DNA from: Medicago truncatula
Lineage: Eukaryota > Streptophyta > Magnoliopsida > Fabales > Fabaceae
DNA: 64,000 nucleotides
NCBI RefSeq assembly: GCF_003473485.1
Contig: NC_053045.1
Location: forward strand, 4,428,501-4,492,500
Reading direction: 5' to 3'
Part shown: positions 1 through 55,500 of the stretch, piece after piece
Layout of the letters: the number at the start of each line of letters is the position of its first letter
Numbering within the stretch: position 1 is the first letter of the stretch
Notes under the pieces: generated by a model
Seen by the model: only the letters and a program-made list of their open reading frames with translations
Database searches by the model: none
What the model was told of the DNA's origin: nothing
Program-made: the position numbers and the translations under genes

Positions 1-254
1 AAACAGCAAAACTAGATCCACCTCATTCTTTTGTGCCATGGGTGGTGGTGAACAATCAACCTATTGAAAAAGTTTGTCTTCTTTTCTCCTTTTTTTTTTC
101 CCAATAACTCACACACACAATTGGTCTAGTTTCCAAAAATACTCATCAAGATTATTGTTTGTGATGTTAATTTCAGGACTATGAAAATTTTACAGACTAT
201 GTTTGCAAGGCTTATAAAGGCGCTGCTATTCCAGCAGTTTGCAATGTTCATTGA
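1..254 (+). CDS. GILT-like thiol reductase, 3' end only (last two exons)
   Basis: Two exons are visible: 3-71 (enters from outside the window) and 177-254, joined in phase 0 by an intron with GT at 72-73 and AG at 175-176. The first encodes a stretch containing PHSFVPWVVVNNQP and the second ends YKGAAIPAVCNVH before TGA at 252-254. PW(V/L)xVN followed by a short tail with a DYVCKAYKG-type sequence is the C-terminal part of plant gamma-interferon-inducible lysosomal thiol reductase (GILT) proteins, secretory or vacuolar thiol oxidoreductases. The catalytic region lies upstream of the window. A complete related gene follows 0.7 kb downstream in the same direction, so this is a tandem pair. Confidence 0.8.
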
Positions 255-977
255 ATGAAAGTGAGAAATAAAGTTACGAGCAAATGATCCCTGCTGAATA
301 TATTACATCTATGATTCTATATATGGTGTACATCTATATCCTTCAAAAACAAAATCTATGATTCTATACAAAAAAATACATTAAATCTGTGATGATTCAA
401 TGCTATATATATAAAAAAAAATCTATGATTCTATAAAAAAAAATTACATTAAAACAATATAAATTTTTTGTCCTTATGAAATTATGAATATTTATATTTA
501 GTCCCTATATAAATTTTCTCCAATCTTAGTCTCTACTTTCTAATTTTTTTTTTTTACAAATGGTGAGTATTCTTAGTCATAGTATTTAGTCCCTGTAAAT
601 GCAAAATAAGGACCAATTTTAGACAAAATTTGTGTGGGGATTAAACTTAAAAGTTGTAACTTTATAAATGGTGAGTATTCTGAACATAACAGATTACTTG
701 GAATAACAAATTGACATATTCAACCCACTCATGAGGGAAGGAAGGGCCACAACCCTATGTGTCCCTCCTTCCATCCATCTAGCCTATGTGCATTGTACTA
801 AAAATCGACATATATTTTTGGATTGATGTATATTACACATTATTATTGGCACATTTAATGTAAAAATTATTTGGTCAATGCCATTATGCCATCCTACCTA
901 TAAGGATGGAGGTATAGCAATAATATATAAACCCTTTAGACTCGTATAGAGCCACCACACATCATAGTACATAGAAA
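255..977. other. Intergenic region with promoter of the downstream GILT gene
   Basis: AT-rich spacer. Between about 300 and 460 a short motif resembling ATCTATGATTCTATA recurs four times with variation. A TATA-like TATATAA lies at 924-930, about 50 bases before the GILT start codon at 978. No gene was seen. Confidence 0.5.
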
Positions 978-2719
978 ATGTCCTCACCAACTTCATTTCG
1001 GTTCCTTTCTTTAATTTCTTTGCTTTTGATTATCATCAATCCATCTCAATCTCATTCTTCTGAGTTCAATAGAAGAAATAATGGTGTTGTCTATGTTTCT
1101 TTGTATTATGAATCTTTGTGTCCATATAGCAAGGATTTCTTCTTGAATGTGCTTGAGAATTTTATTAAATTAGATGTCATGTCTATTGTTCACCTTCATT
1201 TGGTTCCTTATGGCAATGCTTTAACTATGGCAAATGGAACTGTATCTTGCCAGGTCTCAAATTTCCTTGCTTCCTCATAGCTTTATCTTATGTTCATTCA
1301 TATGTCACTGATTAGTCGATCTTTAAGTCGGATATCAAATTTTTCTTTAAAAGAAAATAGTATATTACGATGGTCTGCCTTCGACAAAATCTCACATTCA
1401 TGCAGTCACTATATCGATAATCGTTAGATCAAGATTCGACCATGCAAATTTCAAATTTATTTTTTAAAAAAGAAATTAAAATCTAAACCTTAAAATTTGC
1501 ACTGTTTGATAACGATCTAACAATCACCGTTATGGTGATCATATAAATGTGGGATTTTGACGACCGTTGGAAATCTTGGATTGCATCTTGAGTTGTTTAT
1601 AATTTATAAATATATTTCAATAGTTTTAACATTTTTTTCTACTTTTTATTTAAATATATGTAGCATGGTCCTGATGAATGCTACTATAATACCATAGAAG
1701 CATGTGCTCTTAAAACCTATCCAATGGTAAGGATTTTCCTTAGTAAACATTTTTTTTTTGGTATATTTAGTAAACATTTTTTAATATGATCTAAATGAGA
1801 TTTCTTCTATATATTTCTGACTTTTTTTGTTTGTTTTTGTTTTGTATTTGTCCTATTTGTAAATTTTGGAAGAGATTTAGTTTGGCATTCATCTTTTGTA
1901 TTGAGAATGGCTTACCTGCTACAAGCAAAAAACCAAGTTTATGGAGAACCTGCTGCAACCGTCTCAGATTGAACCCAAAACCCATTAAGAATTGTTATTC
2001 TAGACATGGAAATCAGGTCATTAATTTCATATCTCAATTTTTTGTCATCTATAAGACTATAACTCATTTAGTATTGAATGCATATTTATGTTAATTAAAA
2101 GTCCCAGCTCAACGGACAAAAATGCCGAAATTAAATGTATAATTTAAAAACTATTATTTTTTATTTTTATGGCAATCATGAATGTGTTTTGATAAAAAAT
2201 TATGAATGAGATTACTTTCGCGCATTTTGTTTTTTGGTTGCTTCGTAACATTAAGTTTTTACACGAAAAAATTAAGATTAATTTCATGTTTACTATTTCT
2301 AATTCCTTCAAAAATGTCTACTATTTCTAATTTTAGTTGATGATTCAAATTTTTATAGTTGTATGTGTGAATGCCTCTTACTAATTCTATGCTAAAATTT
2401 GACAATGCAGCTCCATAGACACAATGGTAGAGAAACAAATTGGCTAAATCCACCTCTTACTCACACACCTTGGCTCCTTGTGAATGGCCAATATGTGAAT
2501 GCTGATGTTAGTAACTTTTTTTTTTTTTCTTAACTAACATATTAATCTTTGATAACTTAAACACTTATATTTCTCTCCCTTATTAATATTCCTAATTCTT
2601 TTCTACAGTTTGGTGATCTCGTGAAATCTGTATGCAATGCCTACAAGGGTCCTTTGAGATTCAGAGCTTGCAAAAGATGGAAAGTGGAGAACATGTCTAA
2701 TAAGAGGGTGTTCCCATAA
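978..2719 (+). CDS. GILT-like gamma-interferon-inducible lysosomal thiol reductase
   Basis: Five exons in phase: 978-1253, 1664-1726, 1873-2016, 2411-2506 and 2609-2719, all with GT/AG boundaries and all phase 0, giving 229 residues, a normal size for the family. Residues 1-27 form a hydrophobic signal peptide, so the product should enter the secretory pathway. The active site is C48-P-Y-S51, with serine in place of the second cysteine of the classical CxxC. The family signature CQHGxxEC is read across the exon 1/2 junction (C91 to C98). Exon 4 carries a TPWLLVNGQ segment and exon 5 a CNAYKGP segment, both typical of plant GILTs. The exon 3 acceptor (AG at 1871-1872) is the least certain boundary. 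GILT enzymes reduce disulfides in acidic compartments; the CxxS form may be limited to mixed-disulfide chemistry (inference). Its last exon was later duplicated at about 9.6 kb. Confidence 0.85.
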
Positions 2720-3176
2720 TAACATTCTAGGGTTTTTTTAACAGTTGTTTTTATGTTTTTGTTTTAAATTTAGTGTTCCAAAGCATTTCCATTTTGAGTT
2801 TTAGTGTTATGAAGAATTTACGTTTCAATTTCAAATTAGACAGCAAATTATTATCAAATTTCAATGATTTTTACCTCGTTGATTTCATATGAAACTTAGT
2901 CGTTGATCATTGTTACGAAACGTGGCATCAATAGAAGGAATGAGAGAAAAGTTACTAACTCTTTTTATCGATGAAAATAGAATATTACAAATGAATGAAC
3001 ATATACCTTCTAATAAGAGGTGGTTACAACTATACTACTATATATACTGCTATATAATTAGTTCTAACCTATATCTTTAATATATGTACGTGGAATGTTA
3101 GAAACTTAGAAACTTAGCCAAGATCTTTCACATTATTTCCTTATGATTTTTTCTAACATAAGAGGATCCTAATCCG

Positions 3177-3603
3177 CAAGGCCGTTCGTACGAATCCGGA
3201 GGCTCGATTTTGTAAGTGAAAAGAGGCCCGTAATAAAATAAAAACGTATTTTTTAAAAGATAAATACAAGGTGCCGTATATATGCGATACACCCAAAGGT
3301 GAAAATCACTACCTTATACATGAGGAACCTCAAATCACCTTCCTAGAAAAAACACTCACCTAACACCAAAACCAAGATGACTATATTTTAATAGGCCTAA
3401 AACAAGACAACAGAAGAGGGAAGAAGAAAAGGGAAGTCAGATGGAGTGATGGTGATGGAACGCGTGAGAAAGAGAATATGGATTTTTTTTTTTAATGGGG
3501 TAGTACTTAGTAGTACTGCTGGGATATAATTTTTTTTTTAGGCCCATACCTTGAAGAGACCCGATTTCATTGAACTCCTTGCACACCCTAAGGTTCGGCC
3601 TTG
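3177..3603. mobile_element. hAT-like MITE, 427 bp
   Basis: Ends are short inverted repeats starting CAAGGCCG (left CAAGGCCGTTCG; right, reverse complemented, CAAGGCCGAACC). It is flanked by an 8-bp near-perfect duplication, CTAATCCG at 3169-3176 and CTAATCAG at 3604-3611. An 8-bp target duplication with CA..GG-type ends is typical of hAT transposons. The duplicated copy B reads straight through CTAATCGATGGAATGCC near 10311, with no insertion. No coding capacity; non-autonomous. Confidence 0.75.
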
Positions 3604-3704
3604 CTAATCAGTGGAATGCCACATATCAAACAACTTAAGTCAATACGGAAGTGCCATTTTGATTGACATATCACAATTTCTATGATATATTTGCCACCTT
3701 ACAA

Positions 3705-4813
3705 AAGGCAAAAGTTATGGTCCTTATGCACCGTGCATAAACACTTCACAACCATCAGATCTAGTGTACACATGTAATAATCCTAGGTTTCTCAAACTAC
3801 ACCAAATCAAACTTCATTTGTTTCAAACATTTCTCTCACTAAAACATAAAGCTTTCACTCTATCTCTACAATTTTCAACATTCTGGAAAAGAAAACGAAG
3901 AACTCAGATGAGTCTTCATCTCTTCCGGCCACACATGATGATTCCACTGCGGTGGTTGCCGGCCAGAGGCAGCGGCGGCGCCGTGCTGGAGAACCAAACT
4001 CACCCTTTTTAAAAACTAAAGCCATTTTTCAACATCCATTTTCGTTTTAAAGCCAAATCCGAACTCGGATCACGCAAAAACACAATGAGAAGGAGTAGAT
4101 CTAAAGATTAAAACACAAACGAAATTTTCTTTGCTTCACTTGCTGTTGAGCCGGTTCGCTCCTCTTCTTCCCTCGCATTTTCTTCTTCTTCTTCGATCTA
4201 GTGGCGCTGTGTTGATTGCTATATGTTACTGTTTCGTCACCGTTTGTGTTCACGGTTTCAGATCTTAAGTTGTTACTGGATTCGAAATCTTTGTGATGTT
4301 AGAGGGATTTATGGCTGAGAAACTGCTGGAAACCATTAAGTACATCTAATGGTTTTGGAGTACAACTGCTGGAAAACATTAAGTACATCTAATGATTTTG
4401 GAGTACAACTCACAGAAACCATTTCTTTCCTCCTCCTCCAATTGTGTCAGTCCAAAACTGAATGATGGCAATGGCTCTAGGTCCTTAGTTTTTTTCACCT
4501 CCTGGAAACCATTAAGTATATCTAATGGTTTTGTACTACAACTCACAGAAACCATTTCCACAGCAAAATAGTTTTGGCATAATTTTATACAAAACATACT
4601 ATAATAAGGACATTTGTGACTGTCATTGAACCAAATAACACTCTGAAATCATCATTGAACTAAAATGATAATTTTCGCGGTTGTAGTGTTGTTTCGTTTT
4701 GTTTCGTTTGGTTTCGCTTAGGGGTGTAGGAAACAATTATATTGAACTACCGGTTAATAGGCTGTGATTTATGTACAGTGCATAAGAATTTCCTTATGCA
4801 CCATAACCGCGAA
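3705..4813. mobile_element. MULE-like non-autonomous element, possibly carrying captured host sequence
   Basis: Flanked by identical 9-bp direct repeats ACCTTACAA (3696-3704 and 4814-4822). The ends are imperfect inverted repeats that share GTTATGGT and TTATGCACxGT blocks. A 9-bp target duplication is the hallmark of Mutator-like elements. The interior is unusual: 3905-4010 is GC-rich and reads as an open frame with DESSSLPATHDDSTAVVAG followed by a QRQRRRR run, and 4140-4270 resembles a 5' UTR or intron start. At 4320-4570 a block containing CCATTAAGTAYATCTAATGG recurs three times. This could be a Pack-MULE with captured gene pieces, but the donor gene was not recognised. Confidence 0.6.
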
Positions 4814-5213
4814 ACCTTACAATAGTTTTAGGTGTTAAAGACAGATCCATTATATTATTTTATAATAACAAACTGATCCATTCTTAAGCACAAAACCATC
4901 AAGGTACATTCTAGTATTTTAGTCTCAATTGACCAAATAAAACGAATTCAATCCAAACAATACTAAGTTTCCAAAAAGGTAATTGCTGCATATAGAGTCA
5001 GTTTTTCTATCACACTATAAAAGACTAATACCTCAAATTCGTCCTTGAATTTTGAAAAATTGATCAATTTCGTCTCTGAATTTTGCGAAATATCAAATTA
5101 GTCCCTGAATTTACAAAATGTCAATCAAACCAGTCCCTCCGTTAAGTTGGTCTGTTAATGGAGGTGACGTGTCACGTTAACCTCTGACAAAGCTTACCAC
5201 GTCAGATGCCACG

Positions 5214-7634
5214 TGTAACACCCCGTTTCCCAAAAATCAATTAATTAATAATTCATGCATCAGAGTAATACCCAAACGGGCATGTCACACTACATTTTCA
5301 AAATTTCTTAAATAGAATATAAAATCTATTTAATAAACGTCCTTCAAGTCATTATTAAATTTGCAGCGGAAAATTTGCCTCAAAACAACGATAGCAATAG
5401 TTTAAATCTCCATAATTAATCTTTGGCATAAAGCCTTATCAACATAAATTCAACAACCATAGGGCTACGTCAGCAATATTCAAATTTGATACATAGGAAT
5501 GAAAAACAATAAGAAAATCCCATCCCGTACGTATCAGAGCCCTAGACACTTTGAGCCACCACTTCTAATAAACTTCAATACCTACAAGTTACCCATACGA
5601 AGGGCAACAATTCCAAGCAGAAGGGGTGAGATTCACAAACAATAATAATAGATATATAAATCATCAACTTAATTAAATAACGTAATAAGCAACATATAAG
5701 TCAACAATAATATTCATACTTCTTCGACTTTAATAACTCTTACTAAATCAACCAACAACGACAACAACAACTCGACCACAACAACAATATCTCCCTCAAC
5801 AACAACGACCACAACACAACCTACAACAACGACAATATCACCATCAACGACAACGACAACATCATCCACTACATCAACGACAACGAACGACAGGGTACTA
5901 TTTTCAACTCAATGAATGACTAAGCATTCCGAGGCATAAGCCCCCAACAATTTGAATGATGAAAATTCCAGGGCATGAGCCCTCAACAGATTGAATGATT
6001 AACATTCCAGGGCATGAGCCCTCAACAGATTGAATGACAAGGCATTCCAGGGCATAAGCCCTCAACGGTTGAATGACGAGCATTCCAGGGCATGAGCCCT
6101 CAACAGATTGAATGACAAGGCATTCCAGGGCATGAGCCCTCAACAGTTTCCTAATCATGAAAGGACTCCACTTGTGTATATCAGCATACAACTCAACTAC
6201 GACAACGACAACATAGGCAACAACAACGACAACGACTGTGCATAATAACTTATGACTTACTCCCCAACTTGGTCAACATCAACAATCTATGACTCCGTTA
6301 CTTAGAACGACAACTTGCAACCTTACAACCTGAACCAACATCTTGTATAATCCAATTGAATGCATGTATGCATACACCAACAATCAGCAGCAAATCATAT
6401 TCAATCAACAGCAACATATAATAACAAGCAGCGAGACAACAATAATAATAATCATCATATACAACAAGTAGGACTCATATCAACATTTTTCATATTATAT
6501 AACTATCCCCTCATTGTTCATCAACCTAAGTCGACGTCATTAAACATTATAAACATCCTCTCTGAATCTCCGTATAATCAAGAATAACTTCTCCCCTACC
6601 TCATGGGTCTACTCATATCATCACGTGCGACAAATGATCGCAAAATCCTAAACAAGGCTTCTGAAATGGGACAACTCGCGAGGCGAGAGGCTCTACTCGC
6701 CATGGCGAGTTAGGGTAAACTACTCACCATTCCATTCTGACACCATTCCAAGTTCAATCTCATTCTAAAACTTTGCCTAATCATTAAGGTATATGTTCAG
6801 GCCCTCATAAACACCCAAGGTTAAACTCACAGCTCAAAAACACGAAATCTTGCAAGCTCTCTGCCCACACTCGCCACGGCGAGTAAACTTGCTCGCTATG
6901 GCGAGCTGCGAAATGCAACTCGCGAGGCGACCACTCCTGCTCGCGAGGCGAGCGATGATCTTCATCACTCGCTATGGCGAGGTTCATCACTCGGGAGGCG
7001 AGCGATGAATAACAGTACGGCCAGGTTACAGTTTTTCTCAAAAATTCACCCAATTCCATGGTTCTAACCTTAAAACTGATTCTAAACATCAATATATGAA
7101 TTATCTAAAGTCTGCTCATCATTCCTACATCAATTCACCCTAATTTCATCATTTAATCATCAATTCTCTCCTTAACCCTAATTCCCAATTCTCCAAATTT
7201 ATTCATAATCTTTATTAAACAGAATCAGAATTATATAAACTAAAATCATTGCAAGTTAGCCTCACCCTTACCTTAGATTGATGAATAATGCTTAACAAAA
7301 ATCTGAATTCTCCCCACTTGGCTCTTCTCTTGGCTTTTCTCCCAAAAACTGCTTCCACGTGAAAATGTTTTCTGACTGACAGTTACCAACTTTCCCCTAT
7401 TCTTAACTTCCCTCAATTATAACACTTAACTCCTTCTTAATTCCTTTAATTAAAATATAACCCCCAAAACTTCAATAATTACTAATTCCCACTTATTCTA
7501 TTAAATAGTAAAATAACTCATTTAATAAAATATAACACACCACATAATCAACATAATTATATAAAATCATATATATATATATATAAAAGACCTTAAATCG
7601 ACTAATAATAATTAAATAAAATTGGGGCGTTACA
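5214..7634. mobile_element. LTR-like element (probable solo LTR of a Ty3/gypsy retrotransposon)
   Basis: Begins TGTAACACCCCG and ends CGTTACA, the TG...CA ends of an LTR, and is bordered by a 5-bp target duplication CCACG (5209-5213 and 7635-7639). The insertion lies inside the left terminal repeat of the surrounding MULE, and the right repeat gives the uninterrupted sequence near 8966-8985 (reverse complement GATGCCACGCAAGC), so both ends are fixed to the base. No pol domains were found in its 2.4 kb, so a solo LTR is the simplest reading; gypsy assignment is inference. Inside are CAACAACGAC-type low-complexity sequence (5750-5890), a tandem repeat (about 5925-6150) and many CTCGCGAGGCGAG-like motifs (6670-7005). 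Confidence 0.75.
5925..6150. repeat. Short tandem repeat array inside the LTR-like element
   Basis: About six copies of a unit of roughly 38 bases containing CATTCCAGGGCATGAGCC and CTCAACAGATTGAATGA, some shortened. The open frame crossing it on the minus strand is a by-product of the repeat and is not called as a gene. Confidence 0.75.
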
Positions 7635-8312
7635 CCACGCAAGCAGGGACCAAACTGATTGATTTACACAAAATTTCGAAGGACGAAATTGATGGATTTA
7701 CACAAAATTTTCAAGGACCAAATTGATGGATTTTCAGAAAATTGGCAACGACTCTTTCCCTTCTTTGTGAGTAACGACTCTTTCTCCACTTCCTCATTAA
7801 AGGCTATTTCTTCCCCAAATATATAAATTTGGAACCCTAATGTTATAATTCCTTACATAGAGTTCAAAATCCCCAAAATTTCTTCCATGAATTGATGTAA
7901 TATTTCTTCCCCAATTCAAAAAACTTAGAACCCTAATTTTTTTGGTTAAATTTGAAATTCATAAATCAAGTGGTCTGCCTTGTAGATTCAGTGTTTAGAA
8001 TTGATGGGTGGTGCGCGAATGGGTCCTTGAATTATATTCATATCCATCATTTCGATCCTCAAATTAGTGAAAATACCATCAAATTGGTCCTTGAATTATC
8101 ATAACAGATATCAATGTGATCCTTTGTGCATACATTTGCTGAACAAAGTAAAATGTAAAAGACAAACACTTTGATTATAAAAAGACAAACATTTGCATTA
8201 TATCATAAGTCAATATTCGATGTTAATAAGTCATTACATAGCCAAAAAAACAACAGTACATAGCCAAAAAAGCATTAACTAAACTAGTCCAAAAACATAA
8301 TTAAAACATGCA

Positions 8313-8600
8313 TCACTGTTTTGGAAATCTTGGAGTTGGGATAAACTCCATGTATTGGGGTTGAGTAGAAGTGGATGGCCCGTAATTTGGATTTGGAACT
8401 CTAACAACATCCTCTTGTTGCACCTCAGTAGCAACATTCTCAACAACAGTTTCCACACTTGCCACATTACTTTGTACTTGTTCTTCAGACTCAGTGTCAA
8501 TCCAATTCTTTGGTCTCCTAGCCACACCTTGCTTTGCACAACTTCTTGATTATATGTCCCATCCAATTCTCAATGTGGAAGATGTGGATTGACATTCGCG
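8313..8600 (-). pseudogene. Remnant of a MuDR-type transposase C-terminus (zinc-knuckle tail)
   Basis: The unique core between the MULE terminal repeats (8022-8592) has, on the minus strand, CSKQG-like CAKQGVARRPKNWIDTESEE followed by a polar tail. Slightly upstream in another frame is PHCELDG. Together these look like the frame-shifted C-x2-C-x4-H-x4-C knuckle and basic tail that end many plant Mutator transposases. The rest of the transposase is absent. Assignment rests on motif memory and is an inference. Confidence 0.35.
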
Positions 8601-9536
8601 CACCACCCATCAATTCTAAACACTGATTCTACAAGGCAGACCACTTGATTTATGAATTTCGAATTTAATCAAAAAAAATTAGGGTTCTAAGTTTTTTGAA
8701 TTGGGGAAGAAATTTTACATCAATTCATGGAAGAAATTTTAGGGATTTTGAACTCTATGTAAGGAAGTATAACATTAGGGTTCCAAATTTATATATTTGG
8801 GGAAGAAATAGCCCTTAATGAGGAAGTGGAGAAAGAGCCGTTACTCACAAAGAAGGGAAAGAGCCGTTGTCAATTTTCTAAAAATCCATCAATTTGGTCC
8901 TTGGAAATTTTGTGTAAATCCATCAATTTCGTCCTTCGAAATTTTGTGTAAATCAATCAGTTTGGTCCCTGCTTGCGTGGCATCTGACGTGGTAAGCTTT
9001 GTCAGATGTTAACGTGACACGTCACCTCCGTTAACAGGCCAACTTAACGGAGGGACTGAGTTGATTGACGTTTTGTAAATTCAGGGACTAATTTGATATT
9101 TCGCAAAATTCAGGGACGAAATTGGCCGATTTTTCAAAATTCAAGGACGAATTTGAGGTATTAGTCCACTATAAAACTGATTAAGTGTGTGTTTGTTCCC
9201 GCGGTGGCACCGCACATTGAGACTGAAGTTTGAATTTCTAGCTTCGTAAAAGGTGCATACGACATAGGGACGCGATAATCAATGACCGAACACATACCAA
9301 ACAATTACTACGAATTGACATATTACAACAAATGCATGCTTAAGAAGGTAGCATAAAATACTTACACATACAAAAAAGATTTAGTATATATTAGGTAAAA
9401 TGAATGAATCAAAGAACTGGTTCGACTAACCAACGCTTGTTGGTTCAAATAAGATTGACTTTGGTTCTCCTTAAATAAGGTTTTGAATTCGAGTCTTGTG
9501 AATGAAAAAATAGCGTTGGTAGAACTTTATCATCTT

Positions 9537-10873
9537 TAGTTATATAAACACTTAAATTTCTCTCCCTTATTAACATTCCTAATTCTTTTCTACAGGTTGA
9601 TGATCTAGTGAAATATGTGTGAAATATGTATGCAATGCCTACAAGGGTCCTTTGAGATTCAAAGCTTGCAAAAGATGGAAAGTGGTGAACATATCTAATA
9701 AGGAGGTGTTCCCATGATAATATTCTAGAGTTTTTTTTTAATAGTTGTTTTTATGTTTTTGTTTTAAATTTAGAGTTCCAAAGCATTTCCATTTTAAGTT
9801 TTAGTGATTTTTACCAAATTAGCAGAGATATCATTTAATCTACTAATTTGTATCATTTGAGATTATGACATGGTAGATTAAAGAATGTGTCCTCTTCCAC
9901 ATAGATCCCACATTAATATCAAGTTATTAAATATTTATATGAAACATTAAATTCTAGCATGCTTTTGTTTTATTTCAATGGTTGTTACCTCGAGATTCTA
10001 GCATGTTCAATGATTTTTACCTCATTGATTTCATATGAAACTTAGTCGTCGAGGTCGATCATGTTGTTATGAAACATTACATTCATATAAAGAATGAGAG
10101 AAAAGTTAGAAACTCTTTGTATTAATGAAAATAGAATATTACAAATGAGTGAACAAATACCTTATAAGGTGGTTACACCTATATATATTACTATATGACT
10201 AATTCTAACCTATATCTTTAATACATGTATGTGAGATCATGTGGAATGTCAGAAACTTAGCCAAGATCTTCCACATTATTTTCTTATGATTTTTTCAACA
10301 TAAGAGGATCCTAATCGATGGAATGCCACATATCAAACAACTTAAGTCAATATGAAAGTGCCATTAAGGTCCATGCAGCATTTTCTATCAAATTTTACAC
10401 CTTTACTGTAGTCTAAATTGACCAAATAAAATGAATTCAATCCAAACAAGCTTAAGTTTTCAGAAAGGTAATTGCTGCATATAGAGTCAGTTTTTTTATC
10501 ACAACTACAGAACTGATTGTGTGTTTGTTCCCGCGGTGGCACTGGCACCGCACGTTGAGACTGCAGTTTGAATTTCTAGCTTCGTAAAAGGCGCATACGA
10601 CATTAGGACGCGATAATCAATGACTGAACACAATACCAAACAAGTGCTACGAATTGTCATATTACAACAAATGCATGCTTATGAAGGTAGCATAAAATAC
10701 TTTATATACAAAAAAGATTTAGTATATACTAGGTAAAATGAATGAATCAAAGAACTAGTTCGACTAACCAACGCTTGTTGGTTCAAACAAGATTGACTTT
10801 GGTTCCCCTTAAATAAGGTTTTGAATTCAAGTCTTATGAATGAAAAAATAGCGTTGGTAGAACTTTATCATCT
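9537..10873 (+). repeat. Tandem duplication copy B, free of insertions
   Basis: Matches the GILT last intron, last exon and 3' flank, then the sequence on both sides of the three insertions of copy A, and ends at ACTTTATCATCTT near 10873. It lacks all three transposons. Relative to copy A it has extra sequence around 9810-10010 and a deletion of roughly 190 bases near 10361, with CCAT(T/C)AAGGT microhomology. That deletion removed the equivalent of the 3705-4813 insertion site, so an empty site can be checked for the hAT and the large MULE only. Confidence 0.85.
9595..9716 (+). pseudogene. Duplicated last exon of GILT, non-functional
   Basis: After a preserved TTCTACAG acceptor the sequence follows GILT exon 5 (CNAYKGPLRF-type segment, then KVVNISNKEVFP), but an in-frame TGA and a short local duplication (GTGAAATATGT repeated near 9610-9630) break the frame early. 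No other GILT exons accompany it. Confidence 0.85.
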
Positions 10874-10947
10874 TCCGAGTCCACCCGACTCAACTCAAAC
10901 TGCACGGAGGGTCTAGATCAAAAAGAAAAAGAAACTATCTTGATTCA

Positions 10948-11772
10948 TCAAACATCTTTCTTCACATTCGTGCAAGGGATGTAAGGTGATGACCGTTGTT
11001 TCTTCTGTCCCGACTCTCTCGAGTTGCGCTGATGTTTCTGCAGATTTGTCGTAGTCGTGGAGCATGGCAGTACAGGGCTCTCTATAGCACAAAACTTATG
11101 CTTCATAGTTCTCCAAGGGAAGAAAGTTTCAAGACCACATCCCTTTGGAGAAGAAGAAGAACAAGAAGCATAAGCGTATGAATGTGAATGTCTACCTGAT
11201 TCTGATAAATAACATTCTGGATAACTACAAGTATTACAAACATTCTCTTCAAAATCACTATGAAAATTTAAAGCAGACGATGATGCAGCCAAAGCGGTTG
11301 CGTCCGGAAGAAAACGGTTGATCATGTAAGTAGGGGATTGGTAGCCACTGCACTCTGCAAGCTTTAACTTCAAACTATTATTGTTATCACTATGAGCTTT
11401 CTCTGATTTTCTTTGAACAATATCCAATGCTTCTGATAAAGAAAACACATCATCCATAGCATCTGAGTAAAGATCGTCATTATTGTCAATATAATCCTCT
11501 TCATCACAACCATTTTCTACATCAGATTGATCAGCCGCTTCTTTTCGTGGAAACAAACGATGGCAGGGTGGTAATTTCGAGCCATTCCTCTCTGTATCTT
11601 TCGGCTTTCCTGGTTCTTTCTCCCATGAAAACGGAACTCTTTCACTTGTCTTTTGAAATGTACCTAATGAACTTGATGACAAAGATGTGTCTGCAACGAC
11701 GGAACCAAGACGACGTGTTGACATAATTGGCGCGTTTAAGTTTAACTTTCTATGACGTTTGGAATGATTCAT
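10948..11772 (-). CDS. DUF688-type plant protein
   Basis: One uninterrupted frame of 274 residues. Near residues 45-60 it carries RVPFSWEKEPGKPK, the conserved N-terminal motif of the plant DUF688 family, whose function is unknown. The rest is polar and low in complexity: an acidic stretch (about 86-108), Ser-rich segments, and a late FFPWRTMKHKF motif also usual in the family. No signal peptide or membrane segment was seen; a basic start (NHSKRHRK) could favour nuclear location (inference). Upstream methionine options are out of frame. Its 3' end lies only about 75 bases from the end of the tandem duplication. Confidence 0.7.
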   Translation of the reverse strand: MNHSKRHRKLNLNAPIMSTRRLGSVVADTSLSSSSLGTFQKTSERVPFSWEKEPGKPKDTERNGSKLPPCHRLFPRKEAADQSDVENGCDEEDYIDNNDDLYSDAMDDVFSLSEALDIVQRKSEKAHSDNNNSLKLKLAECSGYQSPTYMINRFLPDATALAASSSALNFHSDFEENVCNTCSYPECYLSESGRHSHSYAYASCSSSSPKGCGLETFFPWRTMKHKFCAIESPVLPCSTTTTNLQKHQRNSRESGQKKQRSSPYIPCTNVKKDV

Positions 11773-13263
11773 AGTTCGGTTTCGAAAACCGACTTCTTAT
11801 TCTTCTTCTTCTAGTATGATGAAGTTCAATGACTAGATTGAGTATCTGAGATAAACTTAGGACAAAAGATTTTGTAAAAGTTGGTATTAGAGAAGATATC
11901 ACAACTAGTTTGTTGGGAGAATAAATAGTAGTAGTTGGAAATATGGATATCTCGTGAGAATAATTAAAACTAAGGTTTTGCTTTAAAGTTGTCACAGATA
12001 TGTTGAAAAGCACTTCCACGTGGGTAACACATAAACAAGGAGAAAAAACTTATGACAAGATAATTTCAGCTTACCCTTTATCAGAATGTGAAATTGCAGG
12101 CCCTTTTTACGTTTCTTTTTTTATTTTACCTTATTTTTAATCTCACTATTCACAAGTAACACAACAAAGAAACCAGGTTGAAAATTAAGGTTGCATTGCA
12201 TGTGAATCATAAAAGGAAAGAATAAAAAGTTTAAGAATGTCAGGTATACAACTATGCATGGTCGTCTTCGTCTCAATTAACATGGACATGTACCCAGCTA
12301 TATCCTTTCAAGTCCCTCGAGTCAAATCTCAACCACTGAAAAAATTGAACGGCCGAAAGATCAATGCTTCTACCGTTATATTAATTCAACAATTGAGATT
12401 TGACTAGAGGGACTGAAGAGTCAATATTGTTACTCGCAGATTGCAGAAAATAACAATTTGTTGAAATTCCACTGCATTATAGTGTTATAACACTCACTGT
12501 AGCCGCTATTTGATAATACTTTGTATCAACAGCAGTTGGTTTGTTCAAATTTTGCTATGCTACAGTGCTTCTTTGGACAACACCGGTCGGAGTCTGGTTG
12601 AGATATTTCAACATTTTACAAGGTATTGTGGGATTTTAAAACAATCTAAGTAAAGAAAAGATACAAAATAGAGAAGAAGAATTAAGCAGTTGAAAAACTG
12701 AAAACATAAAAATAACTAAGGATACAGCTTCACCAAAAAGAACTGATCACAAACATACATTCACCAGGGGAAATTGTGTTTTATACAACAGAGAAGTGAC
12801 AAAATGTTACAACACAATGCGTATTAACAAATGCTCAGCCAAAAATACAATGGTAGTAAAGATCTAAATCTTGGACTTACATAAATTGAATTTTCATATA
12901 CATGTTTTTTCTAACAAAGGAACTCTCCTCGCTATTTTTGAGCTGTTGTAGCATAATAGCTGCGATTCTGTGCACTAGCCATAGTTACATATATTTACAA
13001 GAAATCCTGCTCCTCTACTTTCCCTTTCTGTGTCAACCCAAATGAGCTTTCTAACTTTTCCTTTCTGAAATTCTGCTTCCACAAGGTCAGTTGAAAATTA
13101 TGGACCATACCTTTTGCTTGAGACAAAAGCTAAAACATATAAATAGCACTGATGATTTACTGGTCCTTCATGTTTTTTGAAAAAGTACATGTTGGCAAGA
13201 ATAGCCTTGTGTCCACAGGGAACACTTGGGAAAAACATGTATTCTTTCTAATCTCTGATTCTT
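11773..13263. other. Spacer between DUF688 gene and ETO1
   Basis: Contains the presumed DUF688 promoter and the ETO1 3' UTR region. Apart from the small hairpin element listed separately, no gene was recognised. Confidence 0.5.
12311..12414. mobile_element. Small hairpin MITE, 104 bp
   Basis: The ends are inverted repeats: left AGTCCCTCGAGTCAAATCTC, right (reverse complement) AGTCCCTCTAGTCAAATCTC, followed on both arms by AA and a related extension. No clear target duplication was found, so the superfamily is unassigned. Confidence 0.6.
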
Positions 13264-16200
13264 TCACTTTTGTTTCTTAATATCCTCCTGTGCTTTGTTA
13301 TAAGTCTCCAGCGTCTCGGCGTTGCCTGGATCAAGACAAAGGGCTGCTTCGCAGTCTCGGATGGAAGAAGCGAAATCATTTATTGAATGGTAAAAGGCTG
13401 CTCTAAGATTTAAGAGTTGAAGATCTGGCTTAAATTCAATGGCTCTTGAAAGCTCTTCGATTGCTTCAGCTTCTTTATGATCATCCATTAAAACTGGTAG
13501 ACAGAGTTTCCAAGTAAAAACATTATAAGCTTGTGTGTGTGCAGAGCAGATATACACACTGCACTAATTGGTTTCAAAGGTTCTATGCAATATTATGATC
13601 AAATTGGCCTATCGAGATATTGACGTAAACAAAAGTAATTGAGCATGAACCAAGAGCAACTCAGAACAAAAAAGGAAAAACAAACAGCAAAGGACCCCTA
13701 ATATCCTTAAACAGATATGTTGACATTGCATTTAGATATTTTCCAGAAAAGAAAAAGACATTGCATTTAGATAGTCTATATTGTTTCTATTGTTAATATA
13801 TTGTTTTTAGTGAAAGTATGTTTTCAAGAATTCTTTATTACCACTAATATATAATAACGCATAAGACCCGTGCATCATACGGGTCGGCGATCTAGTAAGT
13901 GCAAAATCTTTCATAAGTACACGCTAAACATGTAGCCTACAATAGTATGGTTTGATAGGCAAGTTGTGAAAAGAAAGTCTATCTACTGATCTACCAAGAT
14001 ATTCCTTCAACATTGAATGCATTGTCTGATGTTCACTTTCTATCTATGAAGCACTGACGCAGACACTGGATACAACGCTAACCGTCGACTGATAATAATT
14101 TGAGAAAATGAAATAATTTAATGAAGCCAAACGGGTCAGTGTTGGACACCGACACGTCTTCAATCTAAAGTGTCGGTGCTATATACCTTTCTACTTAAAG
14201 TTTATAACAAGATACACCTCATTTCGCATGAATCATGATTCTTAGACTTTGATGTTTCAAATAGACTACATTTCATTGGATCATTTAGTTTTGATGTTAG
14301 GGTTTTAATTTGTAAATTAAGGTTTTTGATATGGAACTTTCTTCTGTTGTTTATAGATTTAATTCTATTTTGGATTAGCTTATTACAGTGTTTGACTTTC
14401 CTGAGTCTATAAATAGACCTTCAGTGTAAACATTTGACACACTTCGTTTCTTGTAAAATATAGAGTTTTCTTCATTCATAGAGTATATGAAATGAGTCGG
14501 AGGAGCACTCTAGGTTATCAATAGAAAACCTTTCTAAGAGGGATATTATTGGTTACCACTGAGGCCTAGCGTAAGTGGTGGTGTGAGTGCAGTAATCCTC
14601 AGAGTACCAAGTTCGATTCCTAATCATCAAAAGAGGGATACTATGGTTCCTGTCCTACATTACTATGTAAATAATAGCATGGGATCAAAAATTGCAATGC
14701 ATCAAAAAACAAATGTAACAATAGATATTTGGAACACAAAAATGGCTTACAATCACAGCCACAGTTCCCTCCCTTCGCATCTCACAACCCAATAAAAAAA
14801 CAAAGAATAATTTAGCCCACTGGTATATGACTCACCTGCTGCCCTATATCTGTAAGGATAAGTCCTTAGAGGATCCAAATGTGTTGACATACTAAGATCA
14901 CTCTTTGCCATGTCACGACCACAATACTCCGACCGTTTCTCATAAGCCGATGCATTGTTCCAAGCCTTTTCTATTAGCTTTGTCATCTCATCATATGCAT
15001 CTTTGCTCTGTCTTTTAAGATGATATACACGCGCCAACCCCTGATGGGCTCGTGTATGCTTGATGTTGAGTGCATTCATGTAGCAGTCAGCTGCAAGGTC
15101 CAGCTTATCACAATCTACATACACACTCCCAAGATTATTTAGTGCCTACAATTAAAAAAAAACGACAAAGATAAATACACTACTTCAGCATTGAAATCAA
15201 GTTAATATGCATAATCCAGTGTAAAATATAGAGTGAACAGTCATTTTGATTCTTAAATGTGTGAGACACTAACCCTATAGTCCCTAAATGTATCAAAAGT
15301 GCAAAAACAACCCGAAGTGTATCTTTTATTAGTAATTTATGGACCAAACTGACTAAAGAAGGACACATTTAATTATGTTTTTGTAATTTTGATAGATTCA
15401 GGGACTACTGTGACAGTTTCTTAAACATTTAAGGATCAAAGTGCGTGTTTACTCTAAAATATATAACACTTACTTGCCCTTTACGAAGACCATCTGAAGG
15501 ACATCTAAGAGCTTCCTCCAAGAGATGGATAACATACTCTGAAGACTCAGAATCGAGATTTGTGTCAGCTAATGCATAAGCTTTGAGAAAGTAAGCTTCA
15601 AATGATCTTTGAATAGAAATTGACTCCTCCGCCTTTTCTAATGCTGCTTCACGATGACCGGTGTCATACAGTATCCATCCTTCATATACAAGCCTTTCAT
15701 GGTCAGAAGTAGAATGATTTCTAGCCAGACGCAAACTACGCATGGCTGCTTTTTGACAATTTAGCCTGCAAGATTCAGGAAAATCAACACTCACAATAAT
15801 TAGATTTTTGCATAAAATGATAAAGATATAAGAGACTAATTGGCTCCCCTAGTTGATAACAAAAAAGACTTTCTAAAAAAAGTTATAATAGATAAATAAA
15901 AACTAGATGAAAGTAGATAATAAAAACTAACAAAAATAAATTTGTGCTTTCAGTTAACAAGTACCCTCGAGTCTACCAAAGTAGATATCAACTTTCATTG
16001 ATTCTGCAGGCAGTGAATATAAATAAATAACAACAAAAGTACGTGGCCTGGATTAAGACTTACTACATAAAATTTAGTGTAGTTTCAAGAATGTCACACA
16101 CACAATAGCTACTTCATTGTTGACCCTGGCGAGCACACCATAAAAAAATTCTGCAGTTTCATTATTTTATCATAGTTCGTAACGATTTTTCTCCAAGTTT

Positions 16201-29734: not shown

Positions 29735-31598
29735 TTTAGGGAAGAAGATGATGATGATGATGAAGAAAGGGTTTGTCTCAGCAAAAAGCAGAGAGCTTTG
29801 AAATGATCCACACACAGAAAAGGAAGAAAACCAGTGAACTATGTTTTGTCTTTTTAATCTATTTTAGTATATAGTTTTGTTTTCTTCCCTCTTCTTTTTT
29901 ATATATATATATTTTTTATTTTCCTATTATTGTTTTGAATTTTATTGAAATAGTGGTCCCTGAATTATTAATTTCTTTTAGGGAAGGTTTTATGGTATGG
30001 TTTCAATTTTTCTTTTCCAGCCTAAAAGTGCAGTGTTTCTTTGCTTTTCAGTTTTGATGCCAACCAACTAACAATTTTCCTAACACAAAAACTAGGGGGA
30101 AAAATAGTTTAATTGGTATATACGGTTGGAATAAAAAAAAACCTATATACATTCATCTAATCACATCTCAACCCATAGAAAATTGTGCATATATTTCAGA
30201 AACTATATGATAAAGTAGCACAATAATGAAATATGATTTAATGCATTAAAACTCTTAAGTACATGTTTATTAGTGCAGCACGTCAAGAAGAATTGTGGCA
30301 AAGAACAGCGTTAAAGCAGAAGCTGTTGTTCATAACTTCTCACTATTCACGTCAATATCGCATCGGGATGTGAAATTGAAGTTCCACCTGCCGATCCAAA
30401 CAAGTGCTAAGTTAGTATTCTATTCAAATTGTGATAGTCTTTAGTTATGATTTGTTGCAATCATGGATCATAGGTTGTTCGATCAATATCAAACCACTCA
30501 AATTTCAACTTTATGGTTTAGCTTAATTTTATGCCGTTGGAGTATGAGCCGTCGGTTATAATCGAACAATCCATGATCTACAACTTTATCATTTTCATCT
30601 TTTTATAATTATTTTTTTACCTCAAGGAAAGCAAATTAGTGATTATTTAATACTAAGTTCTTTAATATTTCTATCCAAATTCTATGCGTCCAAAACATTT
30701 TAGACACGAAATGCATCAATGTAGTAAAAAATGGAAAAAAAAAAAAAAAAACTGAAAAATATTGATGAAATAATTTACTATTAGACGTTTATTTTTCTGT
30801 CTTTGATATAAAACTTTCGGTTGCAGTGGGGCTTGACTAAACTTTTCTAGGGGAGATCATTTTTCATTAGATGTCTTGTTTGATGAATAAAATGTGGAAA
30901 GTGCGTTGTGATTTAGGTAGAAACTGTGGGTGCGATATTAAGTATTTTTCAATAGATAGATGCAGTTTAACCATTCCAGTTGGTGAAAAAAATAATTCCT
31001 CCTTGCGTGTTTTTAAAGATATTTGTACATAAAGTAACAAAATCCTTAGTTCTAACCATAAAAAATTTAAAATAAATCTTTTTATCTTTTATGAAAATTT
31101 AATTATTAATCATCTGATTTCACTGCCTAAGAACCTCCTAACTCTTGCTTTACAAAGGTCACACTGACCATGGGGATGTTGAGATAGTGATCTGGCCTAA
31201 ATAATAGTTGCAAGTGGAAAGCAACTCTTACCTTATAAACCGGTTTTGTAATATTGAATTGAACTCGACCCAAATTTTAAAAGTCGAGAGTTCCGACGAT
31301 TACCACAAACAACTTTAACGGTACGGCTAGTGACATTGTCTAGACTATGTAAAAAGAGCTATCACAATCAGATGGAATTGGTAAAGGGTTTAAAAAACAT
31401 TGTCAAAACTTTATAGTTTCATATTCAAATAAAAATGTTGAAGGGTTTTCCTTACAGTTTATAAATTATGCAATTGATGTATACTGCACAGTACCATGAC
31501 CTTAAGCCATTGATGTATGTTTCGACCAACTAAACCGGTATAGTTTATTGTCCTCAATTGCAAAAACAAATCTGGTACAAATAAAACACAATCTTCTC
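29735..31598. other. Intergenic region upstream of the reticulon gene
   Basis: Holds the reticulon 5' leader (a GATGAT run near 29749-29764) and a TATA-rich stretch (29901-29912). A repeat relic lies at about 31170-31300. No other gene was found. Confidence 0.5.
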
Positions 31599-41306: not shown

Positions 41307-42345
41307 CCCACGACACGGAAGCATGCGGGCCCAAAAAATATATTTCTATAAGGCCCAGCCCGGTCGGTCGGACGGCGGCGTCGTCGTCGTCGCGCGGCTT
41401 ATATAATTTTGGCTAGCGCTCACTCTGTTCACAAAAGTGGGTACCCCAAGCCCACGACGCGGAAACGTGCGGGCCCAAAAAATATATTTCTATAAGGCCC
41501 AGCCCAGTCGGACGGCGGCATTGCGTGGCTTATATAATTTGAAGATTGCTTTTTAGGCCCCCCCAATATCTCTTTAGGCCCCCTAAAAATACAAAAATAA
41601 CCTTTATAATACATCCGGTAGTTACATACCGGTAGTGCATTTTAAATTTTCACATTTTACACCTTCGGTATGTACATACCGGAGGCACATTTACAAATTT
41701 TCGCTTTTATCGCATTATGTTATTTAAATGTACATGCTCTGCTATGTTGGAAAATTCACAAACTTTTGGTAGGGTGCATAAAATTTACAGAAATAAAAGG
41801 ATCAAACTTTTCATTGAATATGACAGAACTCTAAAAAAATTATGCAGAAACAATACGAGAGAGGAAGAAGCAAGGTTTACCTTCTAAATGATTGCAATTG
41901 AGTAAAGATTGACGCCATTTGTTCTATTAATTGTGATGAAAACACAACAAAAATTGGCCAAAAAACGCAAGGTATGGAACAATATTGAAGCTTAGAAAAT
42001 AACTCTTAAAAAACTGCACCATTTTATACAGATAACAACGTGGGTGGAGTACGGTATATATATACCGGAGGTGTAATTGAGAAATCGCAAAATGAATGTT
42101 CCTCCAGAACATAACTACGATAAACGTGAAAATTTGTAAATATGCCTCCGGTATGTACATACCGAAGGTGTAAAATGTGAAAATTTAAAATGCACTACCT
42201 GTATGTAACTACCGGATGTATTATAAAGGTTATTTTTGTATTTTTAGGGGGCCTAAAGAGATATTGGGGGGCCTAAAAAGCAATCTTCATATAATTTTGG
42301 CTAGCATTCACTCTGTTCACAAAAGTGGGTACCCCAAGGGCACAC
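41307..42345. repeat. GC-rich 144-bp tandem repeat, second unit interrupted
   Basis: Unit 1 is 41307-41450 (CCCACGACACGGAAGCATGC ... AAAGTGGGTACCCCAAG). Unit 2 starts at 41451, is interrupted at 41540 by the element below, and resumes at about 42298 to 42345. Both share GCGGGCCCAAAAAATATA and GGCTTATATAATTT; unit 1 also has a CGTCGTCGTCG run. Confidence 0.8.
41541..42288. mobile_element. MULE-type foldback element, 748 bp
   Basis: Flanked by a perfect 9-bp duplication ATATAATTT (41532-41540 and 42289-42297). Ends are inverted repeats of roughly 170 bases or more, starting GAAGATTGCTTTTTAGGCCC, with internal CCGGTATGTACATACCGG-type palindromes. The undisturbed target is preserved in unit 1 of the surrounding tandem repeat (GGCTTATATAATTTTGGCTA near 41397). 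Confidence 0.85.
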
Positions 42346-52506: not shown

Positions 52507-55500
52507 TCAGTGACTTATAGTGAACAAGTAGAGTTTCACAAGCTTGCCAGGACAGAAAATAGATGGATGGACACTTTCCAACTGAGGACAATCTTCAATA
52601 TGCAATACATTCAGATTTTCAGCTTTTGAAAAGTTAGGTAACTCCTTCAAGAATCCTGAATGTGATAGTTTAACTTCTTTTAAATTAACTAGATCCGGCT
52701 ACACAAAAAAAAAGTGATATATATAAGCTTAAGTAGTTAATTTACAATAATTCCTTGAATTAAGATAAATTTCATCTGAAAGACACATATTCAATTACCT
52801 GTACTCCACACCAAAGCTTTTCCACTTTACTATAACGCAAGTTCAATATAACAAGATTCTCTGCAGAAAAGTTCTCTGGGAATGATTTTAGAGGGTAACA
52901 TACCCAACGAAGATATCTTAGATCATTTGGAAAAGATTGAAGCCCTCGAGGAAGAAGATCCAAACAGTCATTATCGTACCCACCAAAAAAATTCAAAAAT
53001 TTCAGGTTGGTCATCTTAGCAAATACATGAGGGCTTAACTTCAGCATCCAAACTGATGACAAGTTTACACGTATGCTTCTAATAGCATCAGTACCCTACC
53101 ATTAATGTAAAAGAAAAATTACAAATCATTGAAAGCCAAATTTGTAACCAAAATGACATATGTTTCTAAAAAGTTTCTAAAAACGCCATTATATTTTTTA
53201 CCTTGTCATTTTCCAATACATAGCAAATGTCATCAGGATCCCATAACCGACTTTGTTTACTAGGGTCTTTAATAGATTCTAGGCGAACAACCTCCCGACC
53301 CATCTTTTGTTGAAAGTCATGCATAGATATTACATTATCTTCAGAAATAGTAATAAGAGCTTTATCTTTCAACCTTTCTAACCCAACGGCCACTGAATTA
53401 TCACTTTCATAATCTTTCAATAAAAGTTTCATGTAATCCACTTTCAAATTCAACCCATTGAAGAAACATGCAATATCTAAAAAATACTTTTGCTCTAAGA
53501 GATCAAGATCATCATAACTGAGTCTCATTACTTTATCAATTTCTTGAATTGGCACTTTTTCCAGTTTTTCTAGTTGATAAACCCACGTTTTCTTATTATG
53601 TTTTCCACGAAACATATGACCCAAAACTTTAAGAACTAATGGAATTCCTTTGGCATAATCGACCACCTTCTTTGATAGATCGTAGTACTTAATTTCAAGA
53701 TGACTTTCTTTAAAGGCATTCAAATTGAAAAGCGCAAGTGCATCGCTAGAATTCAATACCCCAACTTCATATACATCATCATCATCAACTTCATTAGCAA
53801 TAAGTACTTGCTTATCTCTAGATGTTACAATGATTCTACTATCGGATCGAAACCAATCAAGAGTTCCAAATAACATCTCTAGCAGACCTTCTTCCTTAAT
53901 ATCATCAAGAACAATAAGAACCTTCATACGGTCAATCCTTCTATGAATATTATTAGACAACCCATTTGATGAATCGATTTTCACATCTTCATTTAATAGG
54001 TTAGAAAAAAGCATTTCTTTTAAAAATGTTATTCCACGACTTTGTAATCCCAAACTCACATTTGACATAAAACAACAACCATCATATTCAGAACAAATTT
54101 GGTCAAATAATTCTTTTGCAATAGTTGTCTTGCCAATACCGCCCATACCCCAAATTCCAATAACACGGACCTTTCCCGACTCTTTGTTTAACAATGAATT
54201 CAAATGTGCAATTGGTTTGTCCATTCCAATAAGTCCTTTTGAGTACTTACCCAAACTCATCAACACAAAATTGGTGATTTCTTCCAGCAGCTCAGCATCA
54301 TTCCTATTGATTGATGGATGTAATGAGAAATCTCAAAATAGTGTCCTTCTTATAAGGAAAAGACAAACACTTTCATCAAAAGTAAGAAAATGTATTGGTT
54401 TTTAACGAAAATGTATTAATTGGTCTAGTTTTATCACAAAATTCAATAAACCAACAAAAAGAATGTCATATTTAATCTAATCCTTGTTTAAAAAAGGTGC
54501 AACATTTAATATAAAAGGAAATATAACTAACTAATAATAAGGTTTAAATGTAATTTTGGTATCTATTTTGAAAAAACTTCAACTTTGGTCCCTCTATTTC
54601 TAATTACACAATTTTGGTCCCCCAATTTAGATTTCTTTTTTACCAACCCATTGTTTTTACCATCCAATTTAATGACGTGACAATAAATTAGATGACCTTT
54701 GTCAAAAAAAAAAAAATTAGATGACCTAAAATGAAAACAAATGGTCTAATTGCTCATAGTCTTAAAAAACTAGGGATATAAAATGATTTGTGACCATGCA
54801 TAGAAAGCCAAAAAAAAAAAAAAAAAAAAGATCAAATAAAATAATACAAGGATTGTATTGCCCTGTAATCAAATTGATGGTTAAAATGATGACTTAATTA
54901 CATTTTTGGTCCTCGTGTTTTGGCCTACTCACGAAACTGGTCCTGCCATTTTAAAATAGAACAAAACAGTCCTTCAATTATCATTTTTGTTGCATTTTTC
55001 GTCCTACCCCCCATTTTATTCTCCAAAAACGCAGAGAAATGACAGTTTTAGACCTATCCCCTATGCTCAACCATGAAATAAACAATGAATAAAGCATGTG
55101 GGTACAAAGAATCCACTTTATTCAACACACTAACAAAAAAAAAACTCTAATTTCTAAGATATGTTTCAAATTAGGTTTTTTTTTGTTTATGTGCTGAATA
55201 AAGTGGATTCCTTGTGCCCACATGTTTTATTCCTTGTTGATTTCATGGTTGAGCATAGGGGTGGGTCTAAAACCGCCTAAAACTGTTATTTCTCTGCGTT
55301 TTTGAAGTTTGAAAATAGGAGGTAGGACGAAAAATGCAACAAAAATGATAATTGAATGACCATTTTGTTCTGTTTTAAAAGAGCAGGATCAGTTTCGTGA
55401 GTAGGCCAAAACACGAGGACCAAAAGTGTAATTAAACCTAAAATGATATGTTGTTCAAATTTTTTTAAATGGAGGACCAAAATTACGCAACTAAGAAATG

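Follow-up and report, generated by a model that had tools for sequence, protein, structure and literature searches.

The window analysed here, 64,000 nucleotides from Medicago truncatula, raises the question of how two neighbouring copies of one gene end came to differ in their content of transposable elements, and in which order the duplication and the insertions took place. The gene concerned is recognised by its open frame, the GT/AG ends of its introns and a Pfam match:

978-2719, + strand: GILT-like gene, 5 exons, 229 aa, CPYS motif
978-1253, 1664-1726, 1873-2016, 2411-2506 and 2609-2719, + strand: exons of the GILT-like gene

A GILT thiol reductase combines a GILT domain with a CXXC or CXXS motif, and the predicted protein carries both the domain (PF03227, E 3.8e-27, residues 40-143) and CPYS. 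Intron 1 contains a weak foldback (1381-1563, 183 bp, 68% self-complementary) that is perhaps an old MITE. Upstream of the gene, the end of a frame at 178-255 (VCKAYKG...) resembles by eye the last exon of GILT and may belong to a second, tandem GILT gene truncated at the edge of the window.

When 9537-12500 was compared with 2000-9536 by BLASTN, five collinear pairs of blocks with 82-93% identity were found, which on the strength of this alignment are one tandem duplicate containing the last exon of the GILT-like gene and its 3' flank only. The doubling of this segment that was proposed in a preliminary description of the locus is borne out by these blocks, with 79 differences at 1045 aligned sites.

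2545-9536, + strand: copy A of the duplicate, carrying the insertions; ATCTT at 2545-2549 and 9532-9536
9532-10874, + strand: duplicate copy B, without copy A's elements; ATCTT at 9532-9536 and 10870-10874
2558-2806 (A) and 9545-9806 (B): block 1, BLASTN
2860-3174 (A) and 10006-10316 (B): block 2, BLASTN
3604-3658 (A) and 10311-10365 (B): block 3, BLASTN
4920-5014 (A) and 10409-10503 (B): block 4, BLASTN
9168-9536 (A) and 10504-10874 (B): block 5, BLASTN

The sequence ATCTT thus stands three times, at the left edge of copy A, at the junction of the two copies and at the right edge of copy B, and its presence at all three junctions is a possible 5-base microhomology, a match of this length being weak evidence. 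The exon in copy A is the last exon of the GILT-like gene itself. Its counterpart in copy B reads VDDLVKYV before a stop and contains an 11-bp repeat (GTGAAATATGT, present twice), and because of the repeat and the stop we regard it as an orphan exon.

Copy A carries the full load of elements that had been ascribed to it (a hAT-type element, a MULE-like element and a large MULE with an LTR), and each of them has direct repeats at its ends:

3177-3603, strand unspecified: short element of hAT type, 427 bp, with CAAGGCCG (8/8) as terminal inverted repeat
3705-4813, strand unspecified: MULE-like element of 1109 bp; its subterminal inverted repeats, around GTTATGG, are imperfect
5023-9166, strand unspecified: large non-autonomous MULE of 1723 bp, or 4144 bp when the LTR is counted
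5023-5213 plus 7640-8021 (left) and 8593-9166 (right): terminal inverted repeats of the large MULE
5214-7634, strand unspecified: solo LTR, 2421 bp, TGTAACACCCC...GGGGCGTTACA, in the large MULE's left inverted repeat

Transposons of the hAT type are recognised by an 8-bp target duplication and a short terminal inverted repeat. At 3177-3603 the terminal repeat is perfect and the flanks, CTAATCCG (3169-3176) and CTAATCAG (3604-3611), agree at 7/8 positions, for which the chance is about 8e-4. Copy B reads CTAATCGA once at the corresponding site and then continues with TGGAATGCC as in copy A, with no visible footprint and no traces of the element; because the site in copy B has a single target, the insertion is placed after the separation of the two copies. 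In its shortness, its 8-bp terminal inverted repeat and its 8-bp target duplication (7/8) the element resembles a hAT-type MITE, but it differs from one in that its tips occur only once each in the window: no second copy of either 25-bp tip was found there when up to 7 mismatches were allowed.

For MULEs a target duplication of 9-11 bp is expected, and the large element is flanked by a 10-bp direct repeat, CACTATAAAA (10/10, at 5013-5022 and 9167-9176), with a chance of about 3e-6. Its inverted repeats are ~575 bp long and match over 191 bp at 94.8% and 388 bp at 96.6% identity (BLASTN). In copy B the site is represented by CAACTACAGAA, present once, again with no visible footprint and no traces of the element. 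A MuDR-type transposase of their own is a feature of autonomous MULEs only; two of the four central frames of at least 60 aa were scanned and gave no Pfam match at E 0.1, as would be expected of a non-autonomous element. The 30-bp tip was found at both ends of the MULE, with three further 22/30 matches that all lie within it; a 14-base stretch of the tip recurs with 2 mismatches at 45726, the only one of 7 matches outside the MULE. The long repeats and the 10-bp target duplication are those of a non-autonomous long-inverted-repeat MULE, from which the element departs in being broken by an LTR inside one of its inverted repeats.

That LTR shows the TG...CA ends and the 5-bp target duplication of its class (TGTAACACCC...GTTACA; CCACG, 5/5, at 5209-5213 and 7635-7639), the duplication having a chance of about 1.7e-3. 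The right inverted repeat of the MULE contains CCACG once, in the uninterrupted sequence GATGCCACGCAAGC, and so provides the empty site of the LTR. The claim that the LTR came after the large MULE therefore holds, in that only one of the two inverted repeats is divided by the LTR and the other runs on uninterrupted. A placement of the LTR in the centre of the MULE would be incorrect, as it is situated within the left inverted repeat; it is also single. Neither of its 40-bp ends recurs in the window (ungapped, at least 72% identity), for which reason it is read as a solo LTR, and self-BLAST of 1-14000 gave no long direct repeat of it.

Del elements are also known as Tekay. According to PMC4029996, the Del elements of sorghum and maize most often have TGTAACACCC as their U3 end, type A U5 ends bear GGG at -8 to -10, and the eudicot Del elements included there are all of type A. 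The LTR at this locus begins with TGTAACACCC and bears GGG at positions -8 to -10 from its end, and together with the 5-bp target duplication these features agree with a solo LTR of the Del/Tekay type whose internal region is gone. Its length is unlike that of the M. truncatula subgroup: PMC4029996 gives mean LTR lengths of 2131 bp (sd 34) for Del elements of M. truncatula and 2397 bp (sd 30) for one subgroup in G. max, so that 2421 bp is 290 bp above the former and nearer to the latter. A tandem array of a 39-bp unit (5.9 copies, 5913-6146) lies inside the LTR.

The MULE-like element is bounded by an exact 9-bp direct repeat, ACCTTACAA (3696-3704 and 4814-4822), which has the length of a MULE target duplication; at least 9 shared bases were seen in 13/5000 pairs of shuffled flanks and in 149/20000 random pairs of 35-base stretches from the window. 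The arms of its inverted repeats are interrupted and lie 9 and 6 bases inside the element ends, and its right tip occurs once in the window. At this site copy B can be aligned either to the left flank, in which case the alignment crosses the target repeat, or to the right flank, and the two alignments tie at 13.5 each. Shuffling gave p values of 0.017 for the left flank and 0.0075 for the right, and 0.065 for the best score against the whole element-free segment of copy A; for sub-stretches chosen post hoc the values were 0.003 (left) and 0/2000 (right). In one of the two tying alignments copy B is without 1242 bp between two occurrences of CCAT, the MULE-like element included. Because of this further indel and the tie, the site in copy B cannot be read at base resolution. 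The before-and-after sequence that the preliminary description had expected for every element is thus available for the hAT-type element, the large MULE and the LTR, but not for the MULE-like element, whose insertion into copy A was most likely also later.

The two copies differ by more than their insertions. With the elements removed, each target copy being retained once (A as 2557-9536, B as 9537-10873), copy A measures 1273 bp and copy B 1337 bp. These lengths are close, as had been noted, but the agreement is partly coincidence, with indels that cancel each other. In the element-free alignment 24 gaps remain, 13 in A and 11 in B, and copy B is not simply copy A minus its elements, some large indels persisting unexplained. 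One of them is the following:

9807-10005: B-side stretch of 199 bp that faces 53 bp of copy A (2807-2859)

TGATTTTTACC stands twice around this stretch, at 9805-9815 and 10011-10021. Similarity between the 53 bp and the 199 bp was not significant (p 0.09) and the idea that they are related sequence was dropped. No convincing second copy of the 199 bp was found elsewhere in the window, the best other matches being those at 2858-2878 (21 bp, E 0.01) and at 30647 (28 bp, E 0.03). Around the MULE-like element, copy B is short of 96 bp or 124 bp present in copy A, depending on which of two alternative alignments is taken.

The relative order of the events can also be approached through divergence. 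Between the copies, K2P is 0.0812 +- 0.0092 (57 transitions and 24 transversions, 81/1061 sites), or 0.0803 (54 and 25, 79/1045 sites) when the bases of copy B that overlap between blocks 2 and 3 are counted once and the right-hand target copies are left out; divergence is not significantly heterogeneous across the five blocks (p 0.16). The inverted repeats of the large MULE have a K2P of 0.0396 +- 0.0086 (22 differences at 573 sites), which is significantly lower by Fisher's test (p 0.0027 with the 1061-site count, 0.0026 with the 1045-site count). In the comparison proposed in the preliminary description the repeats are thus less diverged than the copies (0.040 < 0.080), and the large MULE therefore arrived after the separation of A and B. 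The value of 0.040 is itself a rough guide, as the repeats of a MULE may differ at insertion, which would make the element younger, or undergo gene conversion, which would make it older. At a rate of 1.3e-8, as used in PMC7251063, the copies would have separated ~3 and the MULE repeats ~1.5 million years ago, which again is a rough guide only.

We favour, with a probability of roughly 0.87, a history in which the duplication came first, the upstream copy then received the insertions and the LTR arrived after the large MULE. A segment of ~1.3 kb, the GILT last exon and its 3' flank, would have been duplicated in tandem, perhaps by way of the ATCTT microhomology, and the downstream copy would have decayed to an orphan exon. 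The upstream copy, as the real 3' end of the gene, would later have gained two elements downstream of the stop codon, one of hAT type and one a MULE with long inverted repeats, and most likely the smaller MULE-like element there as well. A Del/Tekay retrotransposon would then have inserted into the large MULE, within its left inverted repeat, and recombination between the LTRs of the retrotransposon would have reduced it to a solo LTR, as the single LTR with its intact target duplication suggests. The sequence itself shows that the segment is duplicated, that the elements have direct repeats at their ends, that the hAT-type element, the large MULE and the LTR each have an empty site, and in which order the elements are nested. 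The proposal that the duplication preceded the insertions is sustained by the single targets in copy B in the case of the hAT-type element and of the large MULE, but not for the MULE-like element, and what these sites establish is strictly that the separation of A from B came first.

This distinction matters for a very improbable alternative, in which unequal exchange joined two haplotypes, one filled and the other empty, so that the insertions would precede the tandem arrangement. The empty sites and the divergence between A and B date the separation of the sequences and not the tandem junction, and are in that respect compatible with it, but in our judgement ~8% divergence with 24 gaps seems high for alleles of one species. 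It is highly improbable that copy B once had the elements, or the MULE-like one at any rate, from before the duplication and lost them afterwards. The preliminary description had named traces of the elements in copy B as the observation that would speak for such losses. There are none at the sites of the hAT-type element and the large MULE, where a single target copy without visible footprint stands in B, and the inverted repeats of the MULE are less diverged than A is from B; at the MULE-like site the two alignments tie. The additional indel of copy B at that site, and the tying alignment that lacks the 1242 bp, do lend some weight to an earlier presence of the MULE-like element alone and its loss from B together with flanking sequence, an event that we consider unlikely.

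Within the favoured history, in which copy A was filled after the duplication, it might be asked whether the distribution of the insertions reflects more than chance. The observation that one copy collected every transposon is correct for the three DNA elements, but three of three independent insertions would fall in one of two near-equal targets with a chance probability of 0.25; the LTR does not count as a fourth independent event because its target occurs in copy A only. Copy A forms the 3' end of a transcribed gene, and if its chromatin is open it might have been a better target than the orphan copy B, a reading that is compatible with the favoured history and would add a bias to it. All three insertions lie in A, and MULEs are described in PMC6446971 as prone to insert in or near genes, but given the chance probability above we regard such a bias as improbable. 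In its more specific form the bias would mean that all three DNA transposons were drawn to the transcribed copy, or tolerated in it, and none entered the adjacent, near-identical orphan; this we regard as quite improbable. If insertion bias were true, the pair would represent a sequence-controlled test of chromatin-guided insertion, and many such pairs together could test the preference of transposons for transcribed flanks over near-identical silent sequence.

Empty paralogous sites (related empty sites) serve to verify transposon insertions. The present locus is like such cases in that the sequence before insertion, with a single target copy, can be read from a paralogue, but unlike them its empty and filled copies are immediate neighbours, and a clean site is lacking for one of the three elements. 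The locus is an instance of a known process, duplication followed by transposon insertion, in the ordinary turnover of a plant genome, with nothing new in kind, and by itself it opens no new question. Its value is as a clean worked case of relative dating, with three of the four insertions readable against an empty site within ~8 kb.

Other features of the window were noted in passing. In 1-14000 there are 36 reading frames of at least 60 aa, of which nine were scanned with Pfam: GILT and DUF688 passed the cut-offs, five of the nine frames had no Pfam match, and weak matches to NA-iREase2 and TrbK fell below the cut-offs and were dropped. The DUF688 match (PF05097, E 3.7e-15) is in a 282 aa frame on the - strand at 10948-11796, adjoining copy B. 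Inverted-repeat arms of 188 bp (95%) spanning 762 bp at 41534-42295 represent a probable inverted-repeat element. Finally, a foldback of 542 bp at 54894-55435, 85% self-complementary and with TAAAATGAT near both ends, is probably a MITE.
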